Shown here: piece by piece, positions 14,475-33,666 of the stretch
How the letters are laid out: the number at the start of each line of letters is the position of its first letter
How positions within the stretch are numbered: the first letter of the stretch is position 1
Assembly: GCA_949287105.1 (NCBI GenBank)
Contig: CASEFE010000154.1
Coordinates: 1-33,666 of the forward strand
Source: an uncultured Bacillota bacterium
GTDB lineage: Bacteria > Bacillota > Clostridia > Christensenellales > Borkfalkiaceae
Length of the DNA stretch: 33,666 nucleotides
Direction: 5' to 3'
The notes under the pieces: generated by a model
The model's database searches: none
Seen by the model: only the letters and a program-made list of their open reading frames with translations
What the model was told of the DNA's origin: nothing
Translations under genes and position numbers: made by a program

Positions 14475-14553
14475 TCGCAGAGAACACGTAAGATTTTTTA
14501 TCGGCAGATCAGATGGAAATGTTAAAGAAACGCTATACAGCATTGAAAAATTT

Positions 14554-14594: not shown

Positions 14595-14640
14595 TGTTGA
14601 GAAGTACAAAATTTTGGCAGCTTATAAAAGTAAAAATAGC

Positions 14641-14669
14641 TTGAATCGTAAGAAAAAGTATGGTAAAAT
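14641..14669 (+). promoter_or_regulatory. Promoter P1 of the AraC regulator gene
   Basis: TTGAAT (14641-14646), 17 bases, TAAAAT (14664-14669), with TGG directly before the -10 as an extended -10. Predicted start is near 14676. A second -10-like TATAAT (14704-14709) lies downstream without a clear -35 and may be P2. Confidence 0.55.
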
Positions 14670-14688
14670 AACATAGAGAATAAAAAAA

Positions 14689-14699
14689 TTGTATTCAAT
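14689..14699 (-). promoter_or_regulatory. Candidate operator copy 1 (ATTGAATACAA on the minus strand)
   Basis: The minus strand reads ATTGAATACAA, which occurs on the plus strand at 15703-15713 before the glycan operon. Here it lies just downstream of P1 and immediately upstream of the second TATAAT, a position that would suit autorepression. Confidence 0.4.
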
Positions 14700-14753
14700 C
14701 TTCTATAATGTTTAGTAAGTAATCAGATAAATTCGGAAAGGAGGCAATTTAGA

Positions 14754-15581: not shown

Positions 15582-15602
15582 AAGACAAATCTACAAACAA
15601 GC

Positions 15603-15630
15603 AAGAAGAGGGATAACCTCTTCTTTTTTT
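15603..15630 (+). terminator. Intrinsic terminator of the araC gene
   Basis: AAGAAGAGG (15603-15611) pairs perfectly with CCTCTTCTT (15617-15625) around a GATAA loop and is followed by TTTTT (15626-15630). Confidence 0.85.
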
Positions 15631-15702
15631 ATGGAAAGCAGCTGGAAATTTCTATTGTTAATTAAGTTTAAAATGATTTCAAGAGTGAAAAAAATAACAA
15701 TT

Positions 15703-15713
15703 ATTGAATACAA
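15703..15713 (+). promoter_or_regulatory. Candidate operator copy 2 (ATTGAATACAA) for the glycan operon
   Basis: An 11-base match to the motif in the araC promoter region, in opposite orientation. Its centre lies about 47 bases before the predicted transcription start, the usual place for an AraC-type activator touching the -35 region. An AT-rich inverted pair ATTGTTA (15654-15660) and TAACAAT (15695-15701) lies next to it and could be part of the site. Confidence 0.4.
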
Positions 15714-15739
15714 AAGAACAAGAAAATAGAAAGTGCGTG

Positions 15740-15748
15740 TGATATAAT
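15740..15748 (+). promoter_or_regulatory. Extended -10 promoter of the glycan-utilisation operon
   Basis: TGATATAAT is a consensus extended -10 (TG-N-TATAAT, with TATAAT at 15743-15748). No good -35 is present 17 bases upstream, which fits a promoter that needs an activator. The leader before the first start codon is about 80 bases. Confidence 0.6.
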
Positions 15749-15834
15749 TAAAATAGATTTAGCTAAAAGCCTACATTTTGAAAGGAAAAATCAGCCTGAA
15801 ATAGAAATAAAACAAAGAAACAGAAGAAATTTAT

Positions 15835-16791
15835 ATGGTTATACAACAAAAAATAGAACAATTTTTACAAAATGCAAAAATTTATGATAGCGCGCTTCTT
15901 TCCTTTTCTGGCGTGGATGGATTTGATGTATATAATCCATCGATTCCTTTTGAAGTAGATGGTAAAGAATATTTGTTCGGAAGGGTTGAAAGGCGGTTAA
16001 AATGGGCAAATTCCAGAACAATATTATTTGAACGCGTATCCGGAGATCATTGGAGAATGGCTCCCGAAGCTCTGGGATATCCATTGGAAGATCCTTTTAT
16101 AAGTTTTATACAGGGAGAAGTGTTACTTGGTGGTACACATGTACGATACCAAGCGGGTGACATTGATACTTATCACTGTTATTTTTATCGGGGGAATCAG
16201 CCGAAAGAGTTAGATCCGTTTACATGTGGTCCGAATTATATGAAAGATATTAGGCTTGTCGATTTGGGATCACGAGGAATCGGGGTGTTTTCAAGACCAA
16301 GAAGTAAGGCGGTGTTAGCACGCTACGGTACAGAATCTGTAGTGGGGTTTCGTGTTATTTCATCGTTAGAAGAATTGACAGCTGCGCGAATTCGTAACGC
16401 ACCGATAATTTCTGGGCTTTTTCAAGCGGGGGAATGGGGCGGTTGTAACCAGGCTTTGGCTTTGGACAGTGGTTTGATTGGTTGTATCGGTCATCAATGT
16501 TTTCTAAAAGCAAAGGATGAGCCGGTATACGTAAATACTGCGTTTGTATTGGATCCGGATTCGCGTCGCGTTTTAGACAGCAAGGTGATCGGATGCAGAA
16601 GTTGTTATCCGGAAGGAGATGCGAAGCTTGCGACTTTAAAGGATGTTGCTTTTACTTCGGGGATCGTTCCGGCGGGAGATGGACTCGTAAATTTATATAG
16701 TGGTTTGGGCGATTGTATGGCGGGCAGAATTACGATCGAAAACCCTTTTTCAGAATACGGCAATATTATTTGGGCGGAGGCAAAAAATTGA
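15835..16791 (+). CDS. DUF1861 family protein, probable beta-propeller glycan-active enzyme
   Basis: A 318-residue cytoplasmic protein with no signal peptide. The pattern YNPSIPFEVDGKEYLFGRVERR near residue 37, the repeated strand-rich blocks, PFISFIQGEVLLGG, and GEWGGCNQAL around residue 200 match DUF1861. Members are predicted to have a five-bladed propeller related to glycoside hydrolase families such as GH43 and GH130, and they often stand next to alpha-mannosidases. No reaction can be assigned from sequence alone; action on a mannose-containing oligosaccharide is inferred from the GH38 neighbour. The gene opens the operon and its stop overlaps the next gene's TTG start as TTGA. The ribosome site is weak (GAAGAAA). 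Confidence 0.75.
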   Translation: MVIQQKIEQFLQNAKIYDSALLSFSGVDGFDVYNPSIPFEVDGKEYLFGRVERRLKWANSRTILFERVSGDHWRMAPEALGYPLEDPFISFIQGEVLLGGTHVRYQAGDIDTYHCYFYRGNQPKELDPFTCGPNYMKDIRLVDLGSRGIGVFSRPRSKAVLARYGTESVVGFRVISSLEELTAARIRNAPIISGLFQAGEWGGCNQALALDSGLIGCIGHQCFLKAKDEPVYVNTAFVLDPDSRRVLDSKVIGCRSCYPEGDAKLATLKDVAFTSGIVPAGDGLVNLYSGLGDCMAGRITIENPFSEYGNIIWAEAKN

Positions 16792-19700
16792 AAGCGCTTA
16801 AAGAAAGAGTAAAATTGATCGTTGATACACTGGAACGTCTTATCGTGACGGATTGTCAAGAAGTTACAGGACTGAGGTATTTGCCTTGCGGTTACAAAAA
16901 GCCGGGGGAGCTACCTGATGTATTGTCGCCGGGGTGGAGGGAGTTCTCTTCCGGGGGCTACTGGGGTGGCGAAAGTGATATGCACGCGTGGTTTACAGCT
17001 GATGTGATTGTGCCTCCAAAATTTGTGGGTAAAACAGTTAGGCTTTGCGTTGATACGCAGCGGAGCGGATGGGATTTGAAAAATCCGCAGTTTATGCTAT
17101 TTATAGATGGAGTTTTACAGCAGGCTTTTGATGTGAATCATCGATCATTTTTATTGCCGGAAGGGTGCACAAATTTTCACATGGATTTGTATGCTTATAC
17201 GAGTCAATATGTAAGTGATCAGATGCGCTTATTTGTAGAACTAAGAGAGATCGATACTGAAACAGAAGAGTTGTATTACGACTTAAATGTCCCTTTGCAA
17301 ATATTGGAATACACCGATTCTGATGATATAGCTTATATAGAGCTTTTGAAAGGATTGAATCAGGCAGTGGATGCACTGGATTTACGTCGTTTGGGCTCAA
17401 AGGAATATAAGGAAAGCGTGAAGCTTGCCTTAAAAAAAGTACATGACACGATCTATGGAAAGTTGAAAGGAAAGTCGGAAATAAGCGCCGTTTGCATTGG
17501 ACATACGCACATTGACATAGCGTGGCTTTGGACACTTGTACAGACGCGCGAAAAGGTTGTGAGAACTTTTTCCACGGTTGTAAATTATATGAAGCAATAT
17601 CCGGAATATCGGTTTATGTCTTCACAGGCGTATTTATACAATGTGGTTAAGGAAGATGCACCGGAATTATTTGCGCAAATTCGTGAATTGATCCGCCAGG
17701 GCAGATGGGAAGTGGAAGGAGCCATGTGGGTCGAAGCGGACTGTAATATCAGCGGCGGTGAAAGCTTGGTTCGGCAGATCCTTTACGGGAAACGCTTTTT
17801 TCAAAAGGAGTTCGGCGTTGATTGTAAAATTTTATGGCTTCCAGACGTATTCGGGTATTCCGCAGCTTTGCCGCAAATTCTGAAAAAAAGCGGGGTAGAT
17901 TCTTTTCTGACATCAAAAATCAGTTGGAATGATACCAATCGTGTGCCGTATGATTTATTTTATTGGAAAGGTATTGACGGCAGTGAGGTTTTAACATATT
18001 TTTTGTGTACGCAGGAAAAGAAGTTGGGAGAAAAACCGCAGACACAGACTTTATATGTCGGTTTTGCGATTCCGAAACAGATAGCGGGATCATGGGATCG
18101 ATTCCAGCAAAAGGAATTGGCGAATGAAACGCTTGTTACATACGGATATGGAGATGGCGGAGGCGGTCCCACCTTGGAGCATCTTGAAAATTTACGGAGA
18201 ATGGCTTATGGGTTGCCTGGGTGCCCGCGTACAGTGCAGGAACCAGCGGGTAATTTTTTCCGGCGTATGCATGAGCGGTCTTTGCATTCAGTGTTTCCGA
18301 AATGGGTCGGCGAATTGTATTTGGAGTTTCATCGCGGAACGTATACGACAATGTCGCGAAATAAACGCTTTAATCGCAAGAGCGAATTTTTGATGTGGGA
18401 ACTGGAATTGCTGCAATCGATCAATCAAGGTTTATTGGGAGAGCGGTATCAACAAACGGAAATACGTAAGTTCTGGGATACGATCATGGTCAATCAATTT
18501 CATGATATCGTTCCAGGTTCTGCAATCCGTGAAGTTTATGAAGATAGTTTGCGGCAATATTTAGAACTGACAGAGCAAGCAACCCATTTATTGAATGAGA
18601 GCATGCAGAATTTGCTAAAGCAAGTGCAGACGAGCGGAGGATATCTTGTTTTTAATCCGCACTCATTTGAAAACAGTGATGTCGTTGTTGCGGAAGATGG
18701 ATTCGAGTTTTTTGCAGAAGACATACCGCCCAAAGGTTACGCGGTTGTAAGGCCTGCAAGCGATAGAGTCAGCTCAGTCGTTTTAGGTGAGAAGAAAATA
18801 GAAAATGCACGTTTTTGTCTTGCTTTTAACGATTGTTATGAACTGATTTCAATATACGATAAAAAATTTGCTCGTGAATTGATTCCGGAAAAGAGCAGGG
18901 CAAATATATTGCGCGTTTTTGAGGAACCGATGCATGACGAATACGATGCTTGGGAGTTGCGTGAATATTATCGTGAAAAATATTGGGATGTTGTGGATTT
19001 ACAAAAGGTAGAAAGTGTAAGGACTGCGGAAAGTGCCGGATTTTGCATAGTACGTAGGTTTTTGGATTCAACGATTACGCAGACTATTCGATTATATGAC
19101 AGATTAGACAGGATAGATTTTGATACGAAAGTTGATTGGAAAGAAAGGCACTTACTATTGAAGGCATTGTTTCCTTTGGATATCAATCAAAGTGTTGCTA
19201 CATACGATATTCAGTTTGGAAACGTACAACGCAATACCCATGTCAATACAAGTTGGGATCAAGCAAAGTATGAGGTATGTGCACATAAGTTTGCTGATTT
19301 ATCAGAAGGCGGGTATGGTGTAGCTTTACTAAATGATTGTAAATATGGATACGATGTACATGACGGAGTTTTAGGACTTTCGCTGTTGCGATCACCTACA
19401 TATCCCAATCCGGATGCAGATCGTGAAGAGCATACTTTTCGATATTCGCTGTACCCTCATAACGGAGGGTTTACTCAATCAGGGACAGTTCGGGAAGCTT
19501 ACCGCTTTAATTTGAAAATGACAGCGTTTCCAGTAATGAAACAAAAAGGAAAATTGCCGGAAAGATTTTCGTTGGTTACTTGCGATTCTGAACAAATCAT
19601 TATGGAAACGGTTAAGAAAGCGGAAGATTCGGACGCAATCGTTTTACGAATGTACGAAACGGCAAATACGAGAGGCGTGGCGATATTACATTTTGGAATA

Positions 19701-19823
19701 CCGGTACAATCAGTAAAGTTATGCAATCTTTTGGAAGAATGTATTGAAGAACTGACGGTGCAGGAAAATACGGTACAGGTAACTTATTCTCCATATGAGA
19801 TTATCACGCTGATGGTGAAATAG
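16788..19823 (+). CDS. GH38 alpha-mannosidase
   Basis: 1011 residues, starting at a TTG at 16788 with GGAGG (16776-16780) seven bases upstream; upstream ATG codons would overlap DUF1861 heavily and lack such a site. The catalytic domain begins with GHTHIDIAWLW (zinc ligands His241 and Asp243), then LPDVFGYSAALP (nucleophile Asp353) and FHDIVPGSA (zinc ligand His572), so the active site is complete. The helical middle and C-terminal beta domains match the normal family length. It hydrolyses alpha-mannosides, for example from N-glycan cores or branches, in the cytoplasm after import, since there is no signal peptide. It sits between DUF1861 and a sugar importer. Confidence 0.93.
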   Translation: MKALKERVKLIVDTLERLIVTDCQEVTGLRYLPCGYKKPGELPDVLSPGWREFSSGGYWGGESDMHAWFTADVIVPPKFVGKTVRLCVDTQRSGWDLKNPQFMLFIDGVLQQAFDVNHRSFLLPEGCTNFHMDLYAYTSQYVSDQMRLFVELREIDTETEELYYDLNVPLQILEYTDSDDIAYIELLKGLNQAVDALDLRRLGSKEYKESVKLALKKVHDTIYGKLKGKSEISAVCIGHTHIDIAWLWTLVQTREKVVRTFSTVVNYMKQYPEYRFMSSQAYLYNVVKEDAPELFAQIRELIRQGRWEVEGAMWVEADCNISGGESLVRQILYGKRFFQKEFGVDCKILWLPDVFGYSAALPQILKKSGVDSFLTSKISWNDTNRVPYDLFYWKGIDGSEVLTYFLCTQEKKLGEKPQTQTLYVGFAIPKQIAGSWDRFQQKELANETLVTYGYGDGGGGPTLEHLENLRRMAYGLPGCPRTVQEPAGNFFRRMHERSLHSVFPKWVGELYLEFHRGTYTTMSRNKRFNRKSEFLMWELELLQSINQGLLGERYQQTEIRKFWDTIMVNQFHDIVPGSAIREVYEDSLRQYLELTEQATHLLNESMQNLLKQVQTSGGYLVFNPHSFENSDVVVAEDGFEFFAEDIPPKGYAVVRPASDRVSSVVLGEKKIENARFCLAFNDCYELISIYDKKFARELIPEKSRANILRVFEEPMHDEYDAWELREYYREKYWDVVDLQKVESVRTAESAGFCIVRRFLDSTITQTIRLYDRLDRIDFDTKVDWKERHLLLKALFPLDINQSVATYDIQFGNVQRNTHVNTSWDQAKYEVCAHKFADLSEGGYGVALLNDCKYGYDVHDGVLGLSLLRSPTYPNPDADREEHTFRYSLYPHNGGFTQSGTVREAYRFNLKMTAFPVMKQKGKLPERFSLVTCDSEQIIMETVKKAEDSDAIVLRMYETANTRGVAILHFGIPVQSVKLCNLLEECIEELTVQENTVQVTYSPYEIITLMVK

Positions 19824-19865
19824 TTTTCAAAATTGCGTTAAGAAAATTAAAAGTTGATTTGGAAT

Positions 19866-19884
19866 TTTGAATCCGATATTCAAA
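19866..19884 (+). repeat. Inverted repeat before the substrate-binding protein gene
   Basis: TTTGAAT-CCGAT-ATTCAAA is a perfect 7-5-7 inverted repeat in the 97-base gap after the mannosidase. In RNA it could form a small hairpin at the 5' side of the binding-protein message, perhaps stabilising it after processing. It has no T-run, so it is not a terminator. Confidence 0.5.
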
Positions 19885-19920
19885 GTTATTAAATATTTTA
19901 TTATGAGGAGGAATAGAGCA

Positions 19921-21570
19921 ATGAAACTCAAAAAGATCATGGCGATTTGTATGTTGAGTATTTTGGCTTGTATGACCTTTATAACATTCTCCGGATGTTT
20001 TCGAAGGGGACAACAAGGGGAAGACATAGACCCGAACCGTACACAGGTTTACATAGGTAATTTTGGGGGCGGCTTGGGGGAACAATGGCTGAAAAACGCC
20101 AAGGCTGAATTTGAAAAGATATATCCGAAGGCTCAGATCATGATCAACACAAACCAGGACTTGTACAACGATTCTTATTTGAGCGCGAACTGGGATGGTA
20201 TGACGGAAGATATATATGTTCTGTCGATGGGCGGCTATTATGATTATGTGCATAAGGATCGGTTCGAAGATATTACGACGGCAGTGACGACTCCGTTGAG
20301 CGAATTTAATGAAACCGAAAGCATTGAAGACAAAATGGACGAAGGATTTAAAACGTATATAAAGACAAACGATAAATATTATGGTTTGCCTTTATATTCC
20401 GGAAGTACCTATATGGTATACAACAAAGAAGTTTTTCGTTCGTACGGATTGTATATGAAAGAGGGCGGCGGATTTGTTCGGCCGAATTCGGATGATCCGA
20501 AAACGGTAGGCGGTGATGGAAAAGAAGGAACTTACGACGATGGGCTTCCGGTTACGTTGAGTGAATTTAAGGCTTTGATGGATCGTATGGTAAGGCAGGG
20601 CGTTACGCCTTTTATTTGGACGGGACAACACGGGTCTTATTTTGCAGAATTGTTGGCTTCTGTATGGTTTGATTACGAGGGATATGATAACGCAGAATTG
20701 TTTTATACAATGAACGGTTCTTACACATTCCATGGAGAAAGTACGCCTACGCCCATCAGTTATAAGAATGCATATCTTCTTCAAAAACAATGGGGAAAAC
20801 ATTATATGCTTGAATTTATGAAAACCATTTTGGACGGAGAAGGATATACGAGAACTGAATGTTTTGACCAAGTATCTCATACTGCTGCGCAGAGTAAATT
20901 TTTGCTCTCGGAAGAGACAAGTAATCCGATCGGAATACTTGTGGAAGGAACATGGTGGGAAAACGAAGCTAAAATTACATTCCAGAGTTTGGTAAATCAG
21001 TCCAACGATCCCAATGATGCATACGGCAAAAAAGAATTCGGTATTTTGCCTGTACCGAAGGCGGATGACGGAACTTCCGCTTCCGGGCATACCTATTATG
21101 GGAATTCGGGACAATCGGTGATAGGAATTCGGAAAGGAACCAAAGTCAAAGATCTTGCTGTTAAATTTGTACAGTTTTTACATACGGATAGCATGTTGTC
21201 GATGATGACTTCAACAACGGGTATTCCGCGCCCGTACGATTATGAGCTTTCAGACGAACAATTAGCTGCGATGACGCCGTTTGCTCGTGAGATTTTAGAA
21301 GTGAACGAATCTACAAAATATGTATACGGAAACAGAAAAAATGCTTTTTCTCAATATAACCCCGATTATTTTAACTGGATTGCGTGGGAATTTAACTTTT
21401 TGGTAAAAGGCAGTACTACATCAGAATTGTTCCCGCAGAATTATTATAAATTTACCAGTAAAGACAAGAGCATTGAACCGATATATGAAGGATTTTTAAA
21501 TTATTACGACGTGAATAAATGGAACGCGGCTGTAGCAAAATTCGAACAGGATACAGGAATAACGGCATGA
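19921..21570 (+). CDS. ABC transporter sugar-binding lipoprotein (CUT1 type)
   Basis: 549 residues from the ATG at 19921, chosen because AGGAGG lies at 19905-19910 and a lipoprotein signal follows at once: KLKKI, a hydrophobic run, then the lipobox FSGC with Cys26 as lipid anchor. The mature part has the family 1 solute-binding layout: TQVYIGNFGGGLGEQWLKNAKAEFEKIYP at the start, then YGLPLYSGSTYMVYNKEVF, and aromatic residues through the middle (GYYDY, GTWWEN) that would stack on sugar rings. It captures an oligosaccharide outside the membrane for the two permeases that follow. The length of nearly 550 residues is on the large side, consistent with binding long oligosaccharides. The stop overlaps the next start as ATGA. 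Confidence 0.9.
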   Translation: MKLKKIMAICMLSILACMTFITFSGCFRRGQQGEDIDPNRTQVYIGNFGGGLGEQWLKNAKAEFEKIYPKAQIMINTNQDLYNDSYLSANWDGMTEDIYVLSMGGYYDYVHKDRFEDITTAVTTPLSEFNETESIEDKMDEGFKTYIKTNDKYYGLPLYSGSTYMVYNKEVFRSYGLYMKEGGGFVRPNSDDPKTVGGDGKEGTYDDGLPVTLSEFKALMDRMVRQGVTPFIWTGQHGSYFAELLASVWFDYEGYDNAELFYTMNGSYTFHGESTPTPISYKNAYLLQKQWGKHYMLEFMKTILDGEGYTRTECFDQVSHTAAQSKFLLSEETSNPIGILVEGTWWENEAKITFQSLVNQSNDPNDAYGKKEFGILPVPKADDGTSASGHTYYGNSGQSVIGIRKGTKVKDLAVKFVQFLHTDSMLSMMTSTTGIPRPYDYELSDEQLAAMTPFAREILEVNESTKYVYGNRKNAFSQYNPDYFNWIAWEFNFLVKGSTTSELFPQNYYKFTSKDKSIEPIYEGFLNYYDVNKWNAAVAKFEQDTGITA

Positions 21571-22484
21571 AACAATTCAGTTACAATAGAAAAAAAGTGG
21601 GTGATTGGCTGTTTTTTTTCTCATTGATTGCTATTCCGATGATTGTATTTATTCTGCTTAACATTGGCGGGATGATTCAATCGTTTTCTTTGGCATTTTC
21701 CAAATATGATTATAAAAAACAGGAATATGTTTTTGCCGGTTTTTATAATTTTGCAGATGTAATTCGGAGTTTTTCAAGTGATGCATTGTTGCGCGGGAGT
21801 GTTTGGAATTCTTTCAAATATTATTTGGCTGTATTAATTATCGTAACGCCGGCGGGCTGGTTGTTTTCTTTTCTTATTTATAAAAAGATGCCTTTTCATG
21901 GAATTTTGAAAGTTGTTCTTTTTATGCCGTCCGTTATCAGCGGTTTGATTTATATCATGATTTACCGTTCTTTCGTACAAGATGCTTTGCCGTTGTTGAT
22001 GAGTCCTTTCGGGATTAAAGTGGAGCATATTTTAACAGGGCCGGATACAGCTTATAATGCTTTGTTAGTGTACACTTTGTGGATGTCTTTGTGCGGAAAC
22101 GTTTTAATCGGAACGGGTGTAATGAGCAAAATTCCCGAAGAAACGATTGAAGCCCTTCAAGTGGACGGAGCGACGGTAATACAGGAATTTATACATCTTA
22201 CGATACCGGTCATCTATCCATTGTTGGTTTTAGGATATTCCACGGGGATTATGTTAATTTTGCAAGGTCAGCCGAGTACTTTTCCTTTCTTTAATACGGA
22301 AGGTCCGAGTTATGTATATACGATCGGTTATTATTTGTTTGTAAAAGTCATGGGAAACAGTACAGTGGAAGAGATTGCATATCCTTACTCTGCGGCGGCT
22401 GGTATAATGATAGGATATTTGTGTTTGCCTGTTGTATTGCTTATACAAAAAGTGCTCACAAAGATTGGCCCGAAGGAGGATTGA
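21567..22484 (+). CDS. ABC transporter permease, MalF-like (CUT1)
   Basis: A 305-residue integral membrane protein with about six helices. The start at 21567 forms ATGA with the upstream stop. The EAA loop that contacts the ATPase is present: EALQVDGATVIQEFIHLTIP. The N terminus (RKKVGDWLFFFSLIAIPMIVF) and the long first periplasmic loop are of the MalF/LplB type. It pairs with the next permease to form the sugar channel. No ATPase gene is next to it, so it probably uses a shared MsmX-like ATPase encoded elsewhere. Confidence 0.9.
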   Translation: MKQFSYNRKKVGDWLFFFSLIAIPMIVFILLNIGGMIQSFSLAFSKYDYKKQEYVFAGFYNFADVIRSFSSDALLRGSVWNSFKYYLAVLIIVTPAGWLFSFLIYKKMPFHGILKVVLFMPSVISGLIYIMIYRSFVQDALPLLMSPFGIKVEHILTGPDTAYNALLVYTLWMSLCGNVLIGTGVMSKIPEETIEALQVDGATVIQEFIHLTIPVIYPLLVLGYSTGIMLILQGQPSTFPFFNTEGPSYVYTIGYYLFVKVMGNSTVEEIAYPYSAAAGIMIGYLCLPVVLLIQKVLTKIGPKED

Positions 22485-22485
22485 C

Positions 22486-23391
22486 ATGTCAAAAAATAGA
22501 AATCAAATTCGGTGGAATACTATTGTTGGCAATATAATCCTTTGGACTTTGTATGTGATACTTTTCATATATGCGGTTACGTTGATATTGGCTTTATTGT
22601 GGGGTTTAAACTGCTCATTTAAGGATATTGGGGATTATATTTTGCATCCGTTTGGTTTTCCTGATCCTTTTGTGGCAAAAAACTATTATTATGCATTAGA
22701 AGGGCTTTATGTTCCGATGATGCTGAACGGTTCTTCGGTATTGATCTATATAGAAGAGCTTACCTTTAACTCATTGGTTTACTCCCTGATCGGTGCTTTA
22801 TTGCAAACAATGAGTGTATGTTTTGTAGCATATGCTGTTGCAAAGATACCAAATAAGTTTGGCTCTTTTCTTTATTGGCTTGCCATTATTTTAATGGTTG
22901 TGCCGATGGGAAGCAGTGATTTGGCATCGACTTTAAGATTGTATCGGACATTGAATATTTACGATAATTTTATTGGAATATTTGTAACCAAGATCGGTTT
23001 TCTCGGATTCAATTTCATTTTATTTCATACGGCATTTTCATCGATATCCAATGATTATATACATGCGGCAGAAATTGACGGGGCAGGGCGTTACACAATA
23101 TTATTTCGTATAATGTTGCCAATGATCTTTAATATTATTTCGATTGTATACCTGCTTTCGTTTGTGGGACTATGGAATGACTGGACTACATCATATCTAT
23201 ATTTGCCTTCTCGTCCCACGCTTTCTTATGCGCTCTATCTTTTGCAGTTCCGAAGCGGGACGATGTACAGTATTGAACCTGTCCGGCTTGCGGCGTGTAT
23301 GATTGTGTGTATCCCGTGTTTCATATTATTTTTCCTTTTCCGCAAGCAAATGATGAATTCATCTCTTGCAATCGGTGGATTAAAGGGTTAA
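22486..23391 (+). CDS. ABC transporter permease, MalG-like (CUT1)
   Basis: A 301-residue membrane protein; the ATG at 22486 follows AAGGAGG by seven bases and begins just after the previous stop. About six helices and an EAA loop (AAEIDGAGRYTILFRIMLP) place it in the MalG/UgpE class. A roughly 40-residue insertion after the first helix (ILHPFGFPDPFVAKNYYYALEG and following) is typical of oligosaccharide permeases of this class in gut Clostridia. It is the second half of the importer. Confidence 0.9.
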   Translation: MSKNRNQIRWNTIVGNIILWTLYVILFIYAVTLILALLWGLNCSFKDIGDYILHPFGFPDPFVAKNYYYALEGLYVPMMLNGSSVLIYIEELTFNSLVYSLIGALLQTMSVCFVAYAVAKIPNKFGSFLYWLAIILMVVPMGSSDLASTLRLYRTLNIYDNFIGIFVTKIGFLGFNFILFHTAFSSISNDYIHAAEIDGAGRYTILFRIMLPMIFNIISIVYLLSFVGLWNDWTTSYLYLPSRPTLSYALYLLQFRSGTMYSIEPVRLAACMIVCIPCFILFFLFRKQMMNSSLAIGGLKG

Positions 23392-23410
23392 GTTTATCAA
23401 GAGGTAGAAA

Positions 23411-26400: not shown

Positions 26401-27742
26401 ATTTTCAGCATGGGATTATTCGGACGGAAGCAAGAAGGATGCTGAAGTCTACGTTGAAGTCGATTATGGCGGATCCATACAAAAACTGCAACCCGGAGAT
26501 GTATTTGTTCCTGCGGCAATCAGCGGCGAAGACAGATCTAGTATGACGGTGCGCTTTATCGCAAAAAATAGCAATGGAGTGAAAAAAGAGATTCCGTTTG
26601 ATGTTACGGTTGCAAATGGTGGAACAGATTTTGACCTGAAAATAATGAATTATTTTGTGGGGACAAATGTGACATCATCAGTAGGGTCCGAAAATGAATT
26701 GATATACAGCGTAACAGGAGAAAATGCGGGATTAGAATTTGTAAATCCGTTGCCCTCCGGTGAATTTATGTTCCGTTTCAGTGCAAATGGAACAACGGAT
26801 GGAATTCGGTTGATCTGGACGGATGAAAAAGATTCATCCATACAGCTTGATGTCTATGTGAAAAATATTGGAAGTGATTCAGTCGAAATATTCTTAAACG
26901 GAGAATCGGTTGGTCATGCGGCTGGTTCATTCGATGGCAGCTCCGGATTTCTGATCACGATCGGCTTGAATGAAGCAACCAATAAACTTGTTGCGCGTAA
27001 TGCTTCGACGGATACCGATATTGAATTGTGCACCGTTCAAAAAGATAAAGCCGGGAAAGCTTTTACCGGTTTTCCGAGTGGTCGTTTACGCATGAAAGTC
27101 GAATTTGTAAATGCTTCTGTCGGCGCGCAATTGATTCCTCGATTCCTGAATACTCAGATATTGGATGCTTCGGTGACGATGGATGAAATTCGACCTTCGA
27201 TTCAAATTTATGGAACGGTAAAGTATATCGCACAGTTGGGTGATGTTGTGGAAGTTCCGTATGCGGTGGCGACAGATATTTTGGATCCTGATTGTACGAT
27301 GACGGTTTCAGTAAGAGGGCCGAGCGGAATTCTTTTGGAAGAGCAGGCAGTAACTTCGGGACTGAGTTTCAAATGTGAAGAATACGGACGTTACCAGGTC
27401 GTGTATACGGCAATGGATACGGCAGGAAATATGATGACCAGTCGTTTGTCTGTTTATGTACGAGACGAGATCGCGCCTGAACTTACGGTCAACGGAACCA
27501 TTCCTCAGAAAGCGAAAGTAGGCGCGAAAATAACACTTCCGTCAGCGACCGGAACAGATAATATTTATTCTGCCGATGAATTAGAATTATCGATATTTGT
27601 TGTGGAAGATAATTTTGCGATGCGGGCAGTAAAAGAAGGCACAGTCACGTTTGATCGGGCCGGAACGTATGAGATACGCTATTATTTGCGGGATCCGGAT
27701 TATAATATCACGATGCAAAGTTTTATCGTAAAAGTGTCATAA
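23411..27742 (+). CDS. 1443-residue secreted modular protein with three beta-sandwich modules and Ig-like spacers
   Basis: The signal peptide spans residues 1-30 (KRYKKF, hydrophobic run, then TASA). I do not recognise a named family for the whole. By eye it has three related beta-rich modules: A ~35-275, B ~564-785 and C ~1070-1258. A and B share strand blocks such as LVFTFTDAENTENSFDI and LKLYLTDTENPENKVEI. They are separated by Ig-like or Big-type domains ending in a typical strand, for example ITYKAKDLSGN, VVYSASDWFGN and VVYTAMDTAGN. The layout is A-3Ig-B-3Ig-C-2Ig. There is no LPXTG, SLH or other anchor and no recognisable catalytic motif. A glycan-binding or adhesin role beside the importer is inferred. 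The modules resemble laminin-G/concanavalin-like sandwiches, which I cannot confirm by eye. Confidence 0.75.
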   Translation: MKRYKKFWFAICLVSLAALCVAFSLTASAKFGYELFDLYGVSMESDQTVSSESGIKDSRTGALLQSTKDGSHVEFREMFVGSFETEFRVFTDEPGNAADPGVTAQNATLKKLVFTFTDAENTENSFDIVLDASSEDVVTPQVSVRKDGQSAGVWYRNGTALGNTSGANEQGYYTTAYGTSFVNLAKSADGYDAANVSSIQIGYNNGEVWTVSNGTKVTVWDWKQGNNDGKLFEPMSHTMKSFHVSISFEDILDGKTAKVLLYTVNGLSVGDSVLRDKEVPGLAVEAETVAVVGKPYSIPLAICGDLVDGVISDISVSVKTIKGAVIPVRYTDGEEATELLQKEGISFTPNEAGEYIITYKAKDLSGNQVKKQLLIEAKAAEPESIFSVKTGEEIVGVGAIYNVYGATATNQYYLDGRQLPVTITLLKDSQTVQVWENLNSGEVDSIALEEEGEYVIRYQVADSVIKDVYEFTVTVTSEIPVFKIAGTISENIFCGEVLQIPSAMVSFQGSESVAEAKLILPDGSAYTCESWNVEQPGMYTIVYSVKINDVMYHKQFSVLAEPKSADLFENLSNATIEGPVRSHLNAGLVGVQVKTSGIGSIQYNRVIDFSDKTKDDVFLELIITPETAGAVDFRELKLYLTDTENPENKVEIDLTLSLDDAALYSWAKIGANGERPAGIYNGSLLDDRFLGALFLHSFSGIGASSPLQEQTCRLSFDYEEKALYVNGNFVRDLDNADQVNTLWEGFETGKATLTISTSYILTTSASFMILEVDGNRYDKVNLADSEAPVIHIQSGKESVDAMPFGVVGKKYPFFAASAYDKTSGNTEVKMRVYREYGTPQQAEFDINNGSFVPTLPGRYTVVYSASDWFGNVSAIPCSFDVIKAESYQTPTLTSEPLEDCLAGIALALPKYSLSGGSGVLSVKHELQLPDESIVLVEDSYIPEVSGSYSWKITVTDYLGEEKIFELPFNVLLNPDPVTTEVNIPQTALAGKNFVIPEFSAWDYSDGSKKDAEVYVEVDYGGSIQKLQPGDVFVPAAISGEDRSSMTVRFIAKNSNGVKKEIPFDVTVANGGTDFDLKIMNYFVGTNVTSSVGSENELIYSVTGENAGLEFVNPLPSGEFMFRFSANGTTDGIRLIWTDEKDSSIQLDVYVKNIGSDSVEIFLNGESVGHAAGSFDGSSGFLITIGLNEATNKLVARNASTDTDIELCTVQKDKAGKAFTGFPSGRLRMKVEFVNASVGAQLIPRFLNTQILDASVTMDEIRPSIQIYGTVKYIAQLGDVVEVPYAVATDILDPDCTMTVSVRGPSGILLEEQAVTSGLSFKCEEYGRYQVVYTAMDTAGNMMTSRLSVYVRDEIAPELTVNGTIPQKAKVGAKITLPSATGTDNIYSADELELSIFVVEDNFAMRAVKEGTVTFDRAGTYEIRYYLRDPDYNITMQSFIVKVS

Positions 27743-27754
27743 AAGGGGATCAGA

Positions 27755-29644
27755 ATGAAAAAATACATCAGACATATTTTAATATGGGTGCTCTTATGCG
27801 CGGTATTGGTTACGTTTGGCTTTACAGGTTGTAAAAAAAATGAAGGCAAACCGGAAGAGGATAACCCGTCCAAGGTAGAAGAGACAGATTATCCGTTCAT
27901 TGTAAACGGAACTACGCCTTATCGTGTTGTTATACCGGAAGATGCAGAAGAAAACGTTGTTCTTGCCCGAGATGAATTGTTGTATTTTGTGAAAGAAGCG
28001 ACCGGTATAAATTTGACTGTAATTTCCGATACAGGTCTTACTTGGTCGGAAGAGGATCAAATTATATCATTGGGTCCGACAACGCTTGCAAAAGAAGCAA
28101 AAATAGATGCGGATCAGGATGTATTGGGCATTTCAGGCTCGCGCCTTGTGACAAAAGGTAAAACGGTTTTTCTGACGGGAGCTACTGATTTTGGTGTGCT
28201 GTACGCAGTATATGATTTTTTGGGTTACGCATTCGGATATCATTTTTATGCGCAAAATGTTTGGACTTTGAATCAAGTAACCAACAGTAATTTATTGGCG
28301 TTTGATGTTGTCAATGTTCCGGATATCGATGTTTCGGCACTTGGTTATGCGGAAATTTACACGGACTCACTACTTCGTGCAAGGTTGCGTCAGCAATCGT
28401 ATTGGGGTGAGTGGGTGATGTCTTCACATTCTTACTTCAATGTTGTTCCCCCGCAGGAATATTATCAAGAACACAGAGACTGGTATAGTCCGGATTGTTT
28501 AGAAGATGGATTGTCTTCAAATGGAACAGGACAAGGGAACATGTGTCTTAGCAATGTAGACAAAGATGTGTTTTTCGAAAATCTGGTAGAAATCGTAGCT
28601 GATGAAAATTCTCCTTACGGAAATCATGAAGGCAGTTATATTATGTTGGGACAACAGGATAATTTTGGCTTTTGTGATTGTCCAGATTGTACTGCTCAGA
28701 TAGAAAAGGACGGCGGTAATTGTGCAGGCATGGTGATGCGTTTTACAAATGAAATGGCGCGTCGCCTGAAAGCTTGGTTGGCGGAAAACGACCCGGGAAG
28801 AGAATTGACTGTTGTGGCGTTTGCTTATAATGCTACGGCAAATCCGCCTACAAAGTATGATGCTGCGTCGGGTAAATATCAGCCGATCAGCAACGACGTT
28901 ATAGGAGAAGATAATGTAGCGATCATGTTTGTACCTCCTCGTCTGAATTACACATATGGTTATGAAGATTCCAGCAATGCAGAAAATATGAATCGCTTAC
29001 TCGGATGGAGCAGTATATGTTCAGACTTATTTATTTGGCAATATTGCGTTAATTTTGATGAATATATGCTTTTATATGACGCTTGGGGTTCGCATAAACC
29101 GATTGCGGAGCTGTATGCGGAACATAACGTTTCATTTATTTTTGACGAAGGGAAAATAGAAGAGCCAATAGCCAGTTTTTCAGATATGGCTATGTATGTG
29201 AAGGCGTCTTTGAACAGAGATTCTTCTTTAGACACTAAAACCCTGATTGAAGATTTTTCGGAGCATTATTATGAGGCGGCGTCACCTAAGATCCTGGAAC
29301 TGTTTTATCTGTTGCGTATGCATTATGCGGATTTGGGTGCTAAATACGGGCAGTTTACTTATTCGGGCGGAAACTGGCACGATATGAAATTCTGGCCGGA
29401 AAACTTTTTGATGAAGTGTTTGGATCTAATTGATGAAGCGTATGAATTGATTGCACCGTTGCGTGAAAGTGATTATGCACATTATGAAGTTTTGTATGAT
29501 CGCGTATTGCGTGAATCATTGATGTTGCGGTATTGGATGCTTACTTTCTATCCGAGTTATTTTGAAAATTATTCTGCCGAGATCGTGCGTTACGAAAATG
29601 ACTGCGCAAACTTTGGAATATTTACAGGATGCGAAATCCGATAG
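27755..29644 (+). CDS. DUF4838 lipoprotein, candidate surface glycoside hydrolase
   Basis: 629 residues. A lipoprotein signal ends in FTGC (Cys26), followed by an acidic, low-complexity linker. Residues ~45-180 form an alpha/beta domain like the N-terminal domain of GH67 and GH20 enzymes (VLARDELLYFVKEATG; GVLYAVYDFLGYAFGYHFYA). Then comes the DUF4838 region, with SHSYFNVVPP, the motif GQQDNFGFCDCPDC (299-312) containing three cysteines, and FIFDEG (Glu465). DUF4838 contains, as I recall, the GH163 endo-beta-N-acetylglucosaminidases acting on N-glycans; catalytic residues here are not proven. It would act outside the membrane, feeding the importer. The start follows GGGGATC. The next gene is its paralogue. 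Confidence 0.85.
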   Translation: MKKYIRHILIWVLLCAVLVTFGFTGCKKNEGKPEEDNPSKVEETDYPFIVNGTTPYRVVIPEDAEENVVLARDELLYFVKEATGINLTVISDTGLTWSEEDQIISLGPTTLAKEAKIDADQDVLGISGSRLVTKGKTVFLTGATDFGVLYAVYDFLGYAFGYHFYAQNVWTLNQVTNSNLLAFDVVNVPDIDVSALGYAEIYTDSLLRARLRQQSYWGEWVMSSHSYFNVVPPQEYYQEHRDWYSPDCLEDGLSSNGTGQGNMCLSNVDKDVFFENLVEIVADENSPYGNHEGSYIMLGQQDNFGFCDCPDCTAQIEKDGGNCAGMVMRFTNEMARRLKAWLAENDPGRELTVVAFAYNATANPPTKYDAASGKYQPISNDVIGEDNVAIMFVPPRLNYTYGYEDSSNAENMNRLLGWSSICSDLFIWQYCVNFDEYMLLYDAWGSHKPIAELYAEHNVSFIFDEGKIEEPIASFSDMAMYVKASLNRDSSLDTKTLIEDFSEHYYEAASPKILELFYLLRMHYADLGAKYGQFTYSGGNWHDMKFWPENFLMKCLDLIDEAYELIAPLRESDYAHYEVLYDRVLRESLMLRYWMLTFYPSYFENYSAEIVRYENDCANFGIFTGCEIR

Positions 29645-29653
29645 GAGAAAAAG

Positions 29654-31384
29654 ATGAAATTAGTAATAGGTGGAAATCCTGCATTCAGGATCTTGTTGCC
29701 AAAAAAGCCGACTCCGAGGGAACAGTTCGCTGCAGAAGAATTGGCGCGGGTAGTAAAAGTCAGTACAGGAAAAAATCTCCAAGTTGACCATGAAGTGAAG
29801 GAAGGGGTTCAATATATTTCACTGGGCAAGACCTTGCTTGCAAAATGTCCCGATCTTGCTCTTGGGGATTCCGGATATCTGTTAAGTGCAAAAGAAGAGG
29901 CTGTAACCATATGCGGCGTAAGCGACAGAGGAACGATTTATGGCGTATATGATTTGTTGGAAAGATGGTTTGGCTACCGATTTTATGCTAAAGATTGTGA
30001 AAAGATAGAAATCCAGGAAGATGTTGATACTGGTGAATTGGAAATTTCATTCAAACCGGACATAGAATTTCGGACCATCGGGTACTCCAAAGATACATGG
30101 GAAGAAGACAGTCCGTATTTGCACCGATTGAAATTGAGCGGCAGTTTGTATTCGGGTTGGGTATTGGCAACGCACACATATTTTCAGATTCTGCCTAAAG
30201 ATCGGTATTACAAAGATCATCCGGATTGGTATTCTCCGGACGGGAAAAACCTGTGCCTAAGCAATAAAGAAATGCGGGCAGAGTTTCTGCAACGAATGAA
30301 AGAACTGATTGCTGCGCGTCCGGATGCGGATTTTATGATGATGGGACAGGAAGATACATTTGAGTTTTGCGATTGTCCTGCTTGCCGTAAAGCAATAAAG
30401 GAATATGGCAGTGAATCGGCGGTCATGATGCGCTTTTCAAACGAAATGGCGAGAGAAATTGCCTCTTGGTTGAAAGAAACATATCCTGATCGTAAACCAT
30501 TGACTTTAGTGACATTTGCATATAATAAAACCTATGCTCCGCCTGTTCGGGAAGAAAACGGAAAATTTGTACCTTTGGATGCAGAGGTCGTTGCAGAAGA
30601 TAATTTGGCAGTCATGCTTGTACCGTACTGTACGACCACGGTGTATTCGGCAAGTTTTCTGGATACAAAGCATAATGAAAAGACAAGTCGAACATTACTA
30701 GGGTGGAAAGCGGTAGCAAAGCGATTGCATATTTGGGTTTACAATGTATCGTTTGATAATTATATGTATCCGTTTTGTGATTGGGATGCGCTCGGTGAAA
30801 ATTATCGGATTTTTAAAAATTTCGGGGTTCAGTTTTTATTTCAGGAAGGTAATCATGAAACCGGATATGATCCTTTTCATGATTTAAAAATTTATGCTCG
30901 AAGTCGTTTGATGTGGGATAGTAGTTTAGACACGGAGGAGTTGTACAGCGATTTTATTAAAAATTATTTTCAAGAAGCGGCTCCTTATATGGCGCACTAT
31001 TTTCAAGGAGTGCGTGAATGTTGGCGAGAGGCAGAGCAAAAATACGGGGTGGAATTAAAGTCCAGTACGTATTTAAGCAATCGCGAGTATTGGCCGGAAG
31101 AATATCTGAAATCGTGGTTGGAGGATTTTGAGAAAGCCAAAAAAGCAATATGTGAGTGTGAACCGGAGCGGAAAAAAGTTCTTGCAGAGCGGCTGTTGCG
31201 AGAAAGTTTATCTCCGCGATATATGATGATTCATCTGCACAGTGATTGGTACGGGGATCGTTTGCAGACCACGATCGATGAATTCCTGGCCGATTGCGCA
31301 AAATTCGGGATCGAATGTTTTGGCTGGTATCACAACGACGAAATTATTCGCGACCCGTCGAAGAAAAGAATGTTTGAGGAATGA
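29654..31384 (+). CDS. DUF4838 protein without signal peptide, cytoplasmic paralogue
   Basis: 576 residues from the ATG at 29654, seven bases after AGGAG. It begins directly with the GH67/GH20-like domain (REQFAAEELARVVKVSTGK; TIYGVYDLLERWFGYRFYA), with no signal. The core aligns throughout with the upstream lipoprotein: THTYFQILPK, GQEDTFEFCDCPAC (231-244) and FLFQEG (Glu398), then RLMWDSSLDT matching the neighbour's SLNRDSSLDT. The three cysteines and the FxEG glutamate are kept in both; GQQD becomes GQED. The two genes look like a duplication with different cell locations, so this copy would act on imported fragments alongside GH38. Substrate is inferred. The stop overlaps an in-frame ATG of the next gene. 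Confidence 0.85.
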   Translation: MKLVIGGNPAFRILLPKKPTPREQFAAEELARVVKVSTGKNLQVDHEVKEGVQYISLGKTLLAKCPDLALGDSGYLLSAKEEAVTICGVSDRGTIYGVYDLLERWFGYRFYAKDCEKIEIQEDVDTGELEISFKPDIEFRTIGYSKDTWEEDSPYLHRLKLSGSLYSGWVLATHTYFQILPKDRYYKDHPDWYSPDGKNLCLSNKEMRAEFLQRMKELIAARPDADFMMMGQEDTFEFCDCPACRKAIKEYGSESAVMMRFSNEMAREIASWLKETYPDRKPLTLVTFAYNKTYAPPVREENGKFVPLDAEVVAEDNLAVMLVPYCTTTVYSASFLDTKHNEKTSRTLLGWKAVAKRLHIWVYNVSFDNYMYPFCDWDALGENYRIFKNFGVQFLFQEGNHETGYDPFHDLKIYARSRLMWDSSLDTEELYSDFIKNYFQEAAPYMAHYFQGVRECWREAEQKYGVELKSSTYLSNREYWPEEYLKSWLEDFEKAKKAICECEPERKKVLAERLLRESLSPRYMMIHLHSDWYGDRLQTTIDEFLADCAKFGIECFGWYHNDEIIRDPSKKRMFEE

Positions 31385-31386
31385 AA

Positions 31387-33666
31387 ATGATGAAAGGGAA
31401 AGGAAAAAGTAGTTTATTGATTGTGTTGTCGGTTTTATTGATTGTCAGTATAATCGGCTTATGCGCATGCACCAAAGAAAAAAAGGATCCGGAAAAGAAA
31501 CTTTCCGTGTCTCCCGCAAGTGTAACAATTGAAGTGGACGCAACGCAGCAATTGACGGTAAATTTAGGAGATGAAAAAGCGGAGGATGCTGGGTTTGAAT
31601 CTTCGGATGTAAGCGTTGCGACGGTTACGGCGAATGGTTTGGTGACGGGCGTTGCAAAAGGAAATTGTTCGATAACCGTAACAGCTGGCAGTCAATCGGT
31701 CAGTGTTTCCGTGACGGTGAAAGAAAAGTCGGTAGTCGCTGAAGATGCATTAAATATTACTGTTCCGAGCGATGCTTCCGTATATATTGGCAATACTTTG
31801 ACTATGCGTCCTAGTGCCAAAAATGGATCTGAAACAGTTACGGCAACGTATACTTTTGAGAGCGAAAATGAAAATATTGCAACGGTTTCATCGGAAGGCG
31901 TTATAACCGGTGTTGCCGAGGGAACAACCAAGATTGTTGTTACCGGGACATACCAGAATAAAACAGACCAGGCGGAATGCAATGTCAATGTAATTAAATT
32001 GAAAAAAACCCTGACGTTTGAAGAGGAAGAAGTGCTTGGTGTAATCGGAAAAACAGTGATGCCCTCTTTGTTGTTAAATGGAGAACCTGTATCCAATGCG
32101 GATTTTAACTTCGAAAGTGAAGATGCCGATATAGCTTCAGTAAATTCGGAGACTGGTGAAATCACGTTTGTTTCCATGGGGACGACGACGATTCGTGCAT
32201 ACGACGAAGATTGTTCGGCGACATTAGAGGTTTCTTCTTTTGAAGGGATTGGAAATAAGTCAGAGTTTAAGTCCAAAATTGCAGCCGATTTGGACGGCAT
32301 GTTTATGCTGACTTCAGACATTGATTTTGAAAAAAATACGGCACCTTTATTTTCGAAAGAAGAGAAGTTTATCGGACGTCTGGAAGGTCAAGGCTATGCA
32401 CTTTGCAACATCGGATATAATATTTTTTATGTTATTGGAGGCGCAAAGTTAAACAATTTTGCTGTTGTGGATACTTCGTTGTCATGGAGTAAACAACAAG
32501 AAGTCAGACATGTTGCGGCAATTACCGAGGCGTTGGATCCGGATTCGGTTGTGTCGAATGTTTACGCTGAAGTGACGTTACTTACAGACGGCGCGGGTAC
32601 GGATGATAGTTTAGCTTCTTTGTTTGGTATTATGCGTGGGGCGACATTGGAAAATGCTGTGATCGTTGTGAAAACGGATGTGCAAAATCCGGCACACATG
32701 GGCGCTGTTGCAGGTAATAACTGGGATACAAGTGCAAAAGGCATAATTCGCAATACGGCTGTTATCAGTGATATTGAGCTTCCTTTTGATGCACGAGGGT
32801 GGGCAACTGTTACGGAAAAGAGTGAGGTGTTTGTCGGAGAAGAAGCGTATTTGCGTGCGGTTTCGACAGGGGCATTTGACGCGAGCGTATTTACAGACGA
32901 ATATTTCACGCAGGATGGAGTACCGACTCTTTATCACGCACCGAAACTTTTTGTTGATACAAATATGACGGTTCTGTATCAGGAAACAGCGACGATACAA
33001 CCGGTTGTAAAGCAAAATTACAAGGTCGTAGATGATGTTCAGTATTCTTATAACGTTTTGGAAGGAAACGATTATGTCACTGTAAACGCAGGTGTGATTT
33101 CCGGGGTTGCGGAAGGAACTGCAAAGATAAAGGTTTCTTGCAATGTGGCTGATGTACCGCTTGAACAGACCATCAATGTTTTGGTGAAGTTGGATCGTGA
33201 ATTGGAAATTGCATCCACATTAAATCTCGGCCTGTATTACAGGGGTGACAATACTGAGCAGGATAAAGTCGGAACGATCAGTGTGATAAAGACGACAATC
33301 AACGGTAATCCTGTGGATGATGCGCAGGTTGTTTGGTCAGTTGAAAATCCGGAAATTGCTACGGTTGATCCGGTGACAGGAACTGTTACAGCGGTAAAAG
33401 AAGGTACGACAACGGTAACCGCGACATGGGAAACGGAACAGAAAACCTGTGAAGTAAGGGTATATTATGGCTTTATTCGTACGCTGGAAGATTTGTATTA
33501 CACTGTTTCGGATAATAATTCCAAAGATTATATTTTGATGAATGATATTGATTTTAACAATGCTAAGTTAAATTATGTTCGCAATCCTTACTATGGAAAA
33601 TTTAACGGAAATGGATTTGCATTCAGAAATGTTGCATACCCTGTCTTCCAACAAATCAATGCGGAC
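31387..33666 (+). CDS. Big2-domain lipoprotein with beta-helix-like repeats (3' end outside window)
   Basis: The frame is open without a stop to the window end (760 residues visible). I chose the ATG at 31387 because GAGG (31376-31379) is seven bases upstream; ATG 31381 is too close to it and 31390 is also possible. A lipoprotein signal ends LCAC with the lipid Cys at residue 28. Big2 (Ig-like) domains occur at ~39-112, 124-203, 208-284, 521-600 and 607-693, recognised by blocks such as VATVTANGLVTGVAKGNCSITV. After the third comes a non-Ig block starting LTSDIDF (308) with FIGRLEGQGYALCNIGY, and after the fifth the same block begins again (LMNDIDF at 717; YGKFNGNGFAFRNVAY). These GxGxxxxN blocks look like GLUG-type beta-helix repeats. 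A surface binding role is inferred. Confidence 0.85.
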   Translation, partial: MMKGKGKSSLLIVLSVLLIVSIIGLCACTKEKKDPEKKLSVSPASVTIEVDATQQLTVNLGDEKAEDAGFESSDVSVATVTANGLVTGVAKGNCSITVTAGSQSVSVSVTVKEKSVVAEDALNITVPSDASVYIGNTLTMRPSAKNGSETVTATYTFESENENIATVSSEGVITGVAEGTTKIVVTGTYQNKTDQAECNVNVIKLKKTLTFEEEEVLGVIGKTVMPSLLLNGEPVSNADFNFESEDADIASVNSETGEITFVSMGTTTIRAYDEDCSATLEVSSFEGIGNKSEFKSKIAADLDGMFMLTSDIDFEKNTAPLFSKEEKFIGRLEGQGYALCNIGYNIFYVIGGAKLNNFAVVDTSLSWSKQQEVRHVAAITEALDPDSVVSNVYAEVTLLTDGAGTDDSLASLFGIMRGATLENAVIVVKTDVQNPAHMGAVAGNNWDTSAKGIIRNTAVISDIELPFDARGWATVTEKSEVFVGEEAYLRAVSTGAFDASVFTDEYFTQDGVPTLYHAPKLFVDTNMTVLYQETATIQPVVKQNYKVVDDVQYSYNVLEGNDYVTVNAGVISGVAEGTAKIKVSCNVADVPLEQTINVLVKLDRELEIASTLNLGLYYRGDNTEQDKVGTISVIKTTINGNPVDDAQVVWSVENPEIATVDPVTGTVTAVKEGTTTVTATWETEQKTCEVRVYYGFIRTLEDLYYTVSDNNSKDYILMNDIDFNNAKLNYVRNPYYGKFNGNGFAFRNVAYPVFQQINAD

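Follow-up and report, generated by a model that had tools for sequence, protein, structure and literature searches.

A recurring putative glycan-uptake cassette with DUF4838 surface proteins in a Borkfalkiaceae lineage, and a copy associated with GT108 and GH38 genes

The sequence analysed here (the window) comprises all 33,666 nucleotides of contig CASEFE010000154.1, from assembly GCA_949287105.1 of an uncultured Bacillota bacterium of the family Borkfalkiaceae. Its source is a draft genome of 2.07 Mb in 176 contigs, 82% complete. At positions 15740-33666 of the forward strand, a promoter-like element is followed by nine genes arranged nearly without gaps on one strand. Five of them form a core that recurs in other loci in the order binding protein, permease 1, permease 2, Surf1 (a large surface protein) and DUF4838 protein, usually continued by a further surface protein, Surf2. 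We consider it rather likely that the locus is a modular polysaccharide-utilisation locus of Gram-positive type and represents one copy of a cassette reused by its lineage. This reusable cassette is a larger finding than the substrate of the window copy, for which the first-pass annotation, made from the window alone, had proposed N-glycans.

Organization of the cassette and its attached enzymes

Complete cores number 36 in the window and 78 further loci, and six of them reside in the window's own genome. Surf2 follows the core in 28 of the 36, behind the second DUF4838 gene where one exists. Genes in the retrieved loci were called with our own six-frame script, and family labels were assigned with profiles that we derived, over two rounds, from the window genes and a small set of relatives; labels of binding proteins and permeases denote generic CUT1 components. 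A lipobox-like pattern was found in 32/36 binding proteins, 33/36 DUF4838 proteins, 26/28 Surf2 and 7/36 Surf1 proteins. Median identity of components among cores is merely 21-35%. Distance matrices of the components correlate in all 15 pairwise comparisons (r 0.60-0.86, p=0.001, 999 permutations, with Mantel p-values that ignore the shared ancestry of species), most strongly between Surf1 and DUF4838 (r 0.86), with r 0.78 between binding protein and DUF4838. Because of this agreement in all pairs, the cassette behaves as a unit.

In the window's own genome, DUF4838 has 17 matches across 13 contigs, and the family is present in 16 of 25 genomes of the genus and in 3 of 16 other genomes sampled from the order. 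Among 64 DUF4838 genes of the genus, Surf1 is located directly before 43 and Surf2 directly after 32, while a binding-protein or permease-1 gene lies within 12 kb on the same strand for 52. This count covers all listed places except G023:C37:22306, and includes L118 (probably a wrong frame) and an L108 row cut by the end of its piece. Across the order, the Surf1 profile matches 15 of 297 genomes at E 1e-20, a lower bound, with two candidates scored per genome. Outside the genus, Surf1 loci were taken from 10 of 13 matching genomes, leaving out weak partial hits in G439, G450 and G618; complete core order is seen in 10 of 13 pieces, from families f158 and f172 of the order. The core of L150 is complete but for a recognised permease 2, and the overlapping L138 and L139 hold Surf1-DUF4838-Surf2 units in which transporter genes are absent. 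In L138 (G609:C46) this unit occurs twice in direct tandem, with no transporter genes in the pieces examined. Surf1 was found neither in five DUF4838 loci from other classes (G052, G072, G230) nor in three from other families of the order (G027, G029, G040). A second DUF4838 subgroup without Surf1 is present in the own genome (L030, L031, L032, L033 and L034), and in L031 and L033 it stands directly ahead of two CUT1 permease genes.

Enzymes attached to the cassette vary between copies. The window copy carries GT108 and GH38, and that on own contig C3 carries GT108. In own contig C30 and in two loci of G002, GH130 immediately precedes the core, and it is listed for L089 and L107 and near L100. 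Other attached genes encode GH3, GH78-type and BNR proteins (C65), GH20C (near L083, L089 and L105), GH127 (L089), GH1 and melibiase (L079), GH94-type protein and glucuronate isomerase (L076), and BNR together with DHDPS/NAL-type proteins (L087, L073 and L113). These neighbours are a chosen part that was annotated, and a neighbour need not share an operon with the core. Since the attached enzymes differ in this way, the core is not specific for N-glycans, and the notion of a plain N-glycan machine was rejected. In the gene neighbourhoods, whose comparison across Clostridia the first-pass annotation had suggested, the combination of GT108 and GH38 does recur, and the core of DUF4838, Surf1 and importer accompanies varied enzymes.

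DUF4838 proteins and their predicted locations inside and outside the cell

The key surface protein family of the cassette is almost unstudied. DUF4838 is rarely named in open-access literature, and in combination with terms for Gram-positive polysaccharide-utilisation loci (gpPULs) it did not appear among the matches listed. Both window proteins exceed the cut-off of the DUF4838 model (PF16126, 26.6 bits), DUF4838-A with 135.6 and DUF4838-B with 197.2 bits. DUF4838-B is also above the cut-offs of the GH67N and GH20b models, while the GH67N match of DUF4838-A remains below. Residues Asp302, Cys264, Tyr358, Pro365, Trp418 and Tyr430 are invariant in all 36 core proteins, as is Cys in the lipobox column (Cys26), and a CxCxxC motif is present in 33-34 of them. 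For the invariant Asp and the residue before it, DUF4838-A has Gln-Asp and DUF4838-B Glu-Asp.

Searches with single DUF4838 proteins against PDB sequences gave four chance matches in one case (E 0.38 or worse) and none in the other. Profiles match PDB entries mainly through the N-terminal domain common to GH67 and GH84 (best E 3.9e-8; core profile 2.4e-5), in addition to a few weak matches elsewhere, such as 4pys (E 0.068). When six non-core DUF4838 proteins were combined into a profile, it aligned over the HxGxDE motif (E 1.3e-4) to HEX-2 of Trichuris suis, a GH20 enzyme of subfamily 1 (PDB 8qk1; excerpt of PMC11308363), with the invariant DUF4838 Asp placed on the general acid Glu199 and the preceding residue on Asp198. 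By this alignment, DUF4838 proteins would differ from HEX-2 in having Asp as the invariant acid at the general-acid position, preceded by a variable residue. The fold model of DUF4838-A resembles GH115, GH84 and GH67 enzymes; no entry named GH163 is present among the 50 of 770 Foldseek matches inspected. Taken together, these similarities weakly suggest a hexosaminidase-like chemistry of DUF4838. PDB 6q63 and BT1044 were dropped as GH163 references; BT1044 is called a GH18 enzyme in the excerpt of PMC8374693. The DUF4838 profile gave no match in the control genome of Bacteroides ihuae.

Tandem DUF4838 pairs occur in eight loci, with the first protein bearing a lipoprotein signal and the second lacking it. 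A simple lipobox pattern was detected in the first gene of all eight pairs and also in the second gene of L072, which was counted as signal-less as no hydrophobic stretch was seen. In the window, DUF4838-B has an N-terminal hydropathy maximum of 1.25 and is probably cytoplasmic. A tree was built from 68 rows; L118, all rows not exceeding 450 aa, and L139, which overlaps with L138, were excluded. A strong N-terminal hydrophobic stretch is missing in 3 of 57 surface-type rows, two of which have their start at the edge of a contig or piece (L038, L145) and one of which has a miscalled early start (L140). The 11 signal-less rows require 9 label changes on this tree, all of them forced by well-supported branches alone, which rules out one old subfamily of signal-less copies. 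Counts this low arose in 69 of 500 label shuffles, which means no more clustering than in shuffled data, and the number of changes does not separate gain from loss.

In six of the eight pairs the inner copy is sister to its own surface partner (L072, L037, L038, L148 and L144 with 99-100% support; L147 with 95/82), and the pair of L076 belongs to a three-member clade. In the window, the two copies are not sisters in the strict sense. DUF4838-B is sister to a solitary signal-less copy from own contig C122 (100/97), DUF4838-A joins the GT108-bearing cassette of C3 with weak support (98/62), and the four together make up a single clade (100/96). The closeness of inner and outer proteins could be explained by repeated duplication as well as by gene conversion. 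Since inner copies have remained similar to their surface partners, the pairs are suggestive of the same kind of cut being made outside and inside the cell. The lone copy on C122 (L035:856-4620) shares 38% identity with DUF4838-B, and the protein encoded next to it downstream has a weak match to DUF5054.

The window copy

The DUF1861 protein at the head of the run was described in the first-pass annotation as a propeller-type protein of DUF1861 only, which overlooked its membership in GT108, the Leishmania mannosyltransferase/phosphorylase family. In a search of solved structures it matches Leishmania MPT-1, -2 and -4 (E 5.5e-66 to 2.6e-82, the latter for MPT-4). PDB alignments, to 2b4w and to MPT-1/2/4 (E 2.2e-82 to 5.5e-66), cover query residues 6-312 at most. 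Asp86 aligns to Asp94, the residue mutated in the MPT-2 D94N structure, so that the active-site Asp is kept. According to the excerpt of PMC8950772, the four characterised GT108 enzymes act on beta-1,2-mannan both as transferases and as phosphorylases, have the GH130 fold and work by a similar mechanism. The window protein is accordingly similar to the Leishmania enzymes (PDB 6q4w-6q50) over nearly its whole length, and in contrast to them it is bacterial, and its gene, adjacent to GH38, belongs to an uptake-type run and not to a storage-polymer context. By homology, it is a candidate beta-mannoside phosphorylase/transferase. DUF1861 and GT108 are both little covered in open-access literature.

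Among 398 genomes sampled from the phylum, including the window's own, the DUF1861 profile matches 13, of which 12 are above the cut-off. Of the 11 strong loci in genomes other than the window's, 6 (4 of 9 genera) have GT108 directly adjoining GH130 on the same strand, and in a seventh the two are ~6 kb apart. Within the genus, GT108 is present in 4 of 25 genomes at five loci; GH38 follows it in three (the window, L028 and L029), a phosphomannomutase-type gene in L027, and in contig C3 (L026) GT108 is placed immediately before the binding-protein gene. Given its neighbours GH130, GH38 and the phosphomannomutase-type gene, phosphorolysis of beta-mannosides that feeds mannose-1-phosphate into metabolism would fit. 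Two of these loci show further peculiarities. In L029:6538-7310 (G009:C14), GT108 beside GH38 is split over two frames, possibly a broken gene or an assembly error; the same locus holds CUT1 permease genes, a Surf2-like gene and GH130 without DUF4838, and represents a related mannoside locus. At L027:9412-12102 (G024:C21), the gene directly after GT108 is of phosphoglucomutase/phosphomannomutase type, with no cassette in the 20 kb examined.

Four GH38 domain models match the adjacent GH38 protein, all over their cut-offs. Among solved structures, Ams1 is its best match (E 3.4e-139), and the next entries carry the name alpha-mannosidase; the matching 7uf- entries are, we assume, Bifidobacterium longum enzymes. 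The motifs HTHID, WLPDVFGYS and QFHD are present, which we take to be metal-binding and nucleophile sites. The own genome has eight GH38N matches, seven over the cut-off. No signal peptide was seen by eye in either GT108 or GH38, and both are therefore probably cytoplasmic.

The features of the locus are listed in Table 1. As described in the first-pass annotation, the run consists of closely spaced or overlapping genes on the same strand, an arrangement confirmed by gene calls and domain matches, and every gene that it had named is present. With the chosen starts, intergenic distances range from -4 to +19 nt, except for 97 nt ahead of the binding-protein gene; starts of the GH38, binding-protein and permease genes were chosen by us from upstream Shine-Dalgarno-like sequences. 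The window ends together with the contig at 33666, leaving Surf2 open. In Surf1, cassette-wide conservation begins at about residue 480, and the C-terminal part is similar to Ig/cadherin-like domains of solved proteins; its structure model was too weak and was dropped as a search query. A gene for the importer ATPase was not recognised within the run, and a shared ATPase is assumed.

Table 1. Features of the locus in the window
Feature	Position	Strand	Evidence and remarks
AraC-family regulator	14754..15581	+	cupin-like sensor domain; Pfam HTH_18 E 4.2e-18, AraC_binding E 1.4e-12
Extended -10 element	15740..15748	+	TGATATAAT; 5 matches in window (both strands) vs 1.82 expected
GT108 (DUF1861)	15835..16791	+	Pfam DUF1861 E 1.3e-99
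GH38 alpha-mannosidase	~16788..19823	+	GH38N E 2e-87; start codon uncertain
CUT1-type solute-binding lipoprotein	19921..21570	+	Pfam SBP_bac_1 E 3.4e-8; AGGAGG upstream of start
CUT1 permease 1 (MalF-like)	21567..22484	+	NCBIfam MalF E 1.7e-10, below its cut-off; no Pfam match
CUT1 permease 2 (MalG-like)	22486..23391	+	Pfam BPD_transp_1 E 4.2e-9; NCBIfam MalG E 1.4e-9, below its cut-off
Surf1	23411..27742	+	1443 aa; secreted or N-terminally anchored; Ig-like domains
DUF4838-A	27755..29644	+	lipoprotein (lipobox Cys26); GH67N-like and DUF4838 domains; Pfam DUF4838 E 2.8e-39
DUF4838-B	29654..31384	+	Pfam DUF4838 E 5e-58; no signal peptide seen
Surf2	31381..33666	+	lipoprotein with Big_2 domains; Pfam Big_2 E 3.7e-40; truncated by contig end

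Control by AraC and a single extended -10 promoter had been proposed for the run. The AraC-family gene and the element at 15740 are indeed present, and a single promoter for the whole run is plausible, but two further extended -10 matches lie within the run, in permease 1 (22400, on the strand of the run) and in DUF4838-A (28061, antisense). A general promoter scan of 14400-33666 gave no excess (41 found, 51 expected). Just past the AraC gene a terminator-like hairpin is located at 15603-15625 (one of 21 such sites in 14400-33666, with 14.4 expected), for which reason this gene is probably a separate transcription unit; that its product controls the run is our inference. Genes upstream of AraC are unrelated, and encode a helicase, a ComEC-like protein, DNA polymerase III delta, a DisA-type cyclase and aspartokinase. 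The 1892-aa protein encoded at 1693-7371 combines a DUF4011 helicase with an MTES_1575 nuclease domain and is perhaps a defence or repair protein. No RNA families (at the gathering threshold) and no tRNAs were found in the window.

Proposed pathway, substrate and significance

In the proposed mechanism, Surf1 and Surf2 would hold a glycan at the cell surface, where the DUF4838 lipoprotein would cut it, probably in a hexosaminidase-like manner as judged from fold class and motif alignment. Fragments would be brought in by the CUT1 importer. In the cytoplasm, GH38 may remove alpha-mannose and GT108 may split the beta-mannoside with phosphate to mannose-1-phosphate, both by family assignment, while DUF4838-B would repeat the kind of cut made by its surface partner. 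Surface cleavage, import and cytoplasmic trimming, as conceived initially, fit the localisation signals. Our comprehensive reading is that an order-level Gram-positive lineage possesses its own counterpart of the Sus core, that DUF4838 is an uncharacterised branch of a hexosaminidase-like clan repeatedly copied to the cytoplasm, and that the window copy serves a GT108-based phosphorolytic pathway for alpha/beta-mannosides, for example N-glycan cores. In this entirety it is offered tentatively, as possible rather than probable. Several observations weigh against the proposed mechanism. The Surf1 fold model is weak and all-beta (pLDDT 52.7), and glycan binding is only presumed for this protein. 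A profile search did not find Surf1 in 20 listed genomes of other genera of the same family, making the core patchy. Residue 301 varies across the 36 cores (Glu 14, Gln 7, Asn 4, other 11), which leaves doubt about a catalytic pair common to all of them. The DUF4838-A model is moderate (pLDDT 70.5, best TM 0.51 among the Foldseek matches inspected), and the profile of the core DUF4838 proteins themselves finds no GH20-like match, so that the similarity to GH20 derives from the non-core subgroup.

A host N-glycan fragment is a good candidate for the substrate of the window copy, although we place its probability well below even. The core of N-glycans carries alpha-mannose on beta-mannose, which GH38 and a beta-mannoside phosphorylase would fit. 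Extended to a locus dedicated to host N-glycans, with DUF4838 proteins acting as GH163 endo-beta-GlcNAcases, this explanation could be correct but is doubtful. It agrees with a published table in which a Polaribacter DUF4838 protein is labelled GH163 (excerpt of PMC9870897), with the cleavage of GlcNAc-beta1,2-Man in complex N-glycans by GH163 of B. thetaiotaomicron (excerpt of PMC10154615), and with GH20 genes in the own genome (5 matches) and near other cores. Association of DUF4838 cores with GH78, GH127, GH94, GH3 and glucuronate isomerase is unlike a single N-glycan function, however, and GH85, GH92 and GH125 had no match in the 82%-complete genome, in which GH18 was not searched for; GH92 is present in 3 of the 24 other genomes of the genus. 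An alternative substrate would be fungal or protist mannan with beta-1,2-mannose, in which GT108 would act on beta-1,2 links and GH38 on alpha links. It is favoured by the activity of characterised GT108 enzymes on beta-1,2-mannan (PMC8950772, excerpt), by recurrence of the GT108-GH38 pair and by pairing of GT108 with GH130 elsewhere. We regard it as unlikely: DUF4838 would have no clear role on pure mannan, and Pfam recognised no endo-alpha-mannanase in the run (the genome itself was not screened for GH76 and GH99).

Core DUF4838 proteins might also be non-catalytic glycan-binding parts of the capture machinery, which would agree with their co-divergence with binding protein and Surf1, their position beside several enzyme types and the variable residue 301. 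Invariance of Asp302 and of five other residues in all 36 cores argues against this, as do repeated changes of the signal-less state on the tree, needless for a surface binder, and we consider it improbable. Last, GT108 might build a storage or surface beta-mannan and merely share an operon with the importer. The Leishmania enzymes do work in both directions as transferase-phosphorylases (same excerpt), yet GT108 stands in line with importer genes in the window and in contig C3 and adjoins GH130 in 6 of 11 loci outside the genus, and synthesis appears very improbable.

Glycan uptake in Bacteroides is well understood, with a SusC/D core reused together with changing enzymes. By analogy, the core described here may work in the same way, as one machine with exchangeable enzymes; the likeness is one of arrangement. 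Among Gram-positive systems, gpPULs of Roseburia and Eubacterium rectale similarly unite enzymes, usually an ABC importer, and a regulator, sometimes AraC-like, are substrate-specific and lack SusC/D (excerpt of PMC5320581). The window locus correspondingly unites GH38, glycan-trimming by family, with a CUT1 importer and an AraC gene, and differs in its fixed DUF4838/Surf1/Surf2 core recurring across loci; no such core is described in the same excerpt, where loci are treated one by one. The N-glycan system of Streptococcus pneumoniae (CPL locus, EndoD and ABC-NG; excerpt of PMC5215778) also comprises GH38 and a binding protein with two permeases, and imports a mannose-rich fragment that is then trimmed in the cytoplasm. 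It uses, in contrast, GH85, GH92 and GH125, none of which was found in the window's genome, while GT108 and DUF4838 of the window are not described in that excerpt.

If the proposed reading is true, a conserved and duplicated core with exchangeable enzymes would allow substrates to be predicted over dozens of loci from one worked example, and DUF4838 would gain a place and a role. GT108, whose characterised members are named only from Leishmania in the excerpt of PMC8950772, would extend to bacterial mannoside uptake. Pairs of surface and cytoplasmic DUF4838 proteins would constitute a natural experiment on moving an enzyme from the outside to the inside of the cell.

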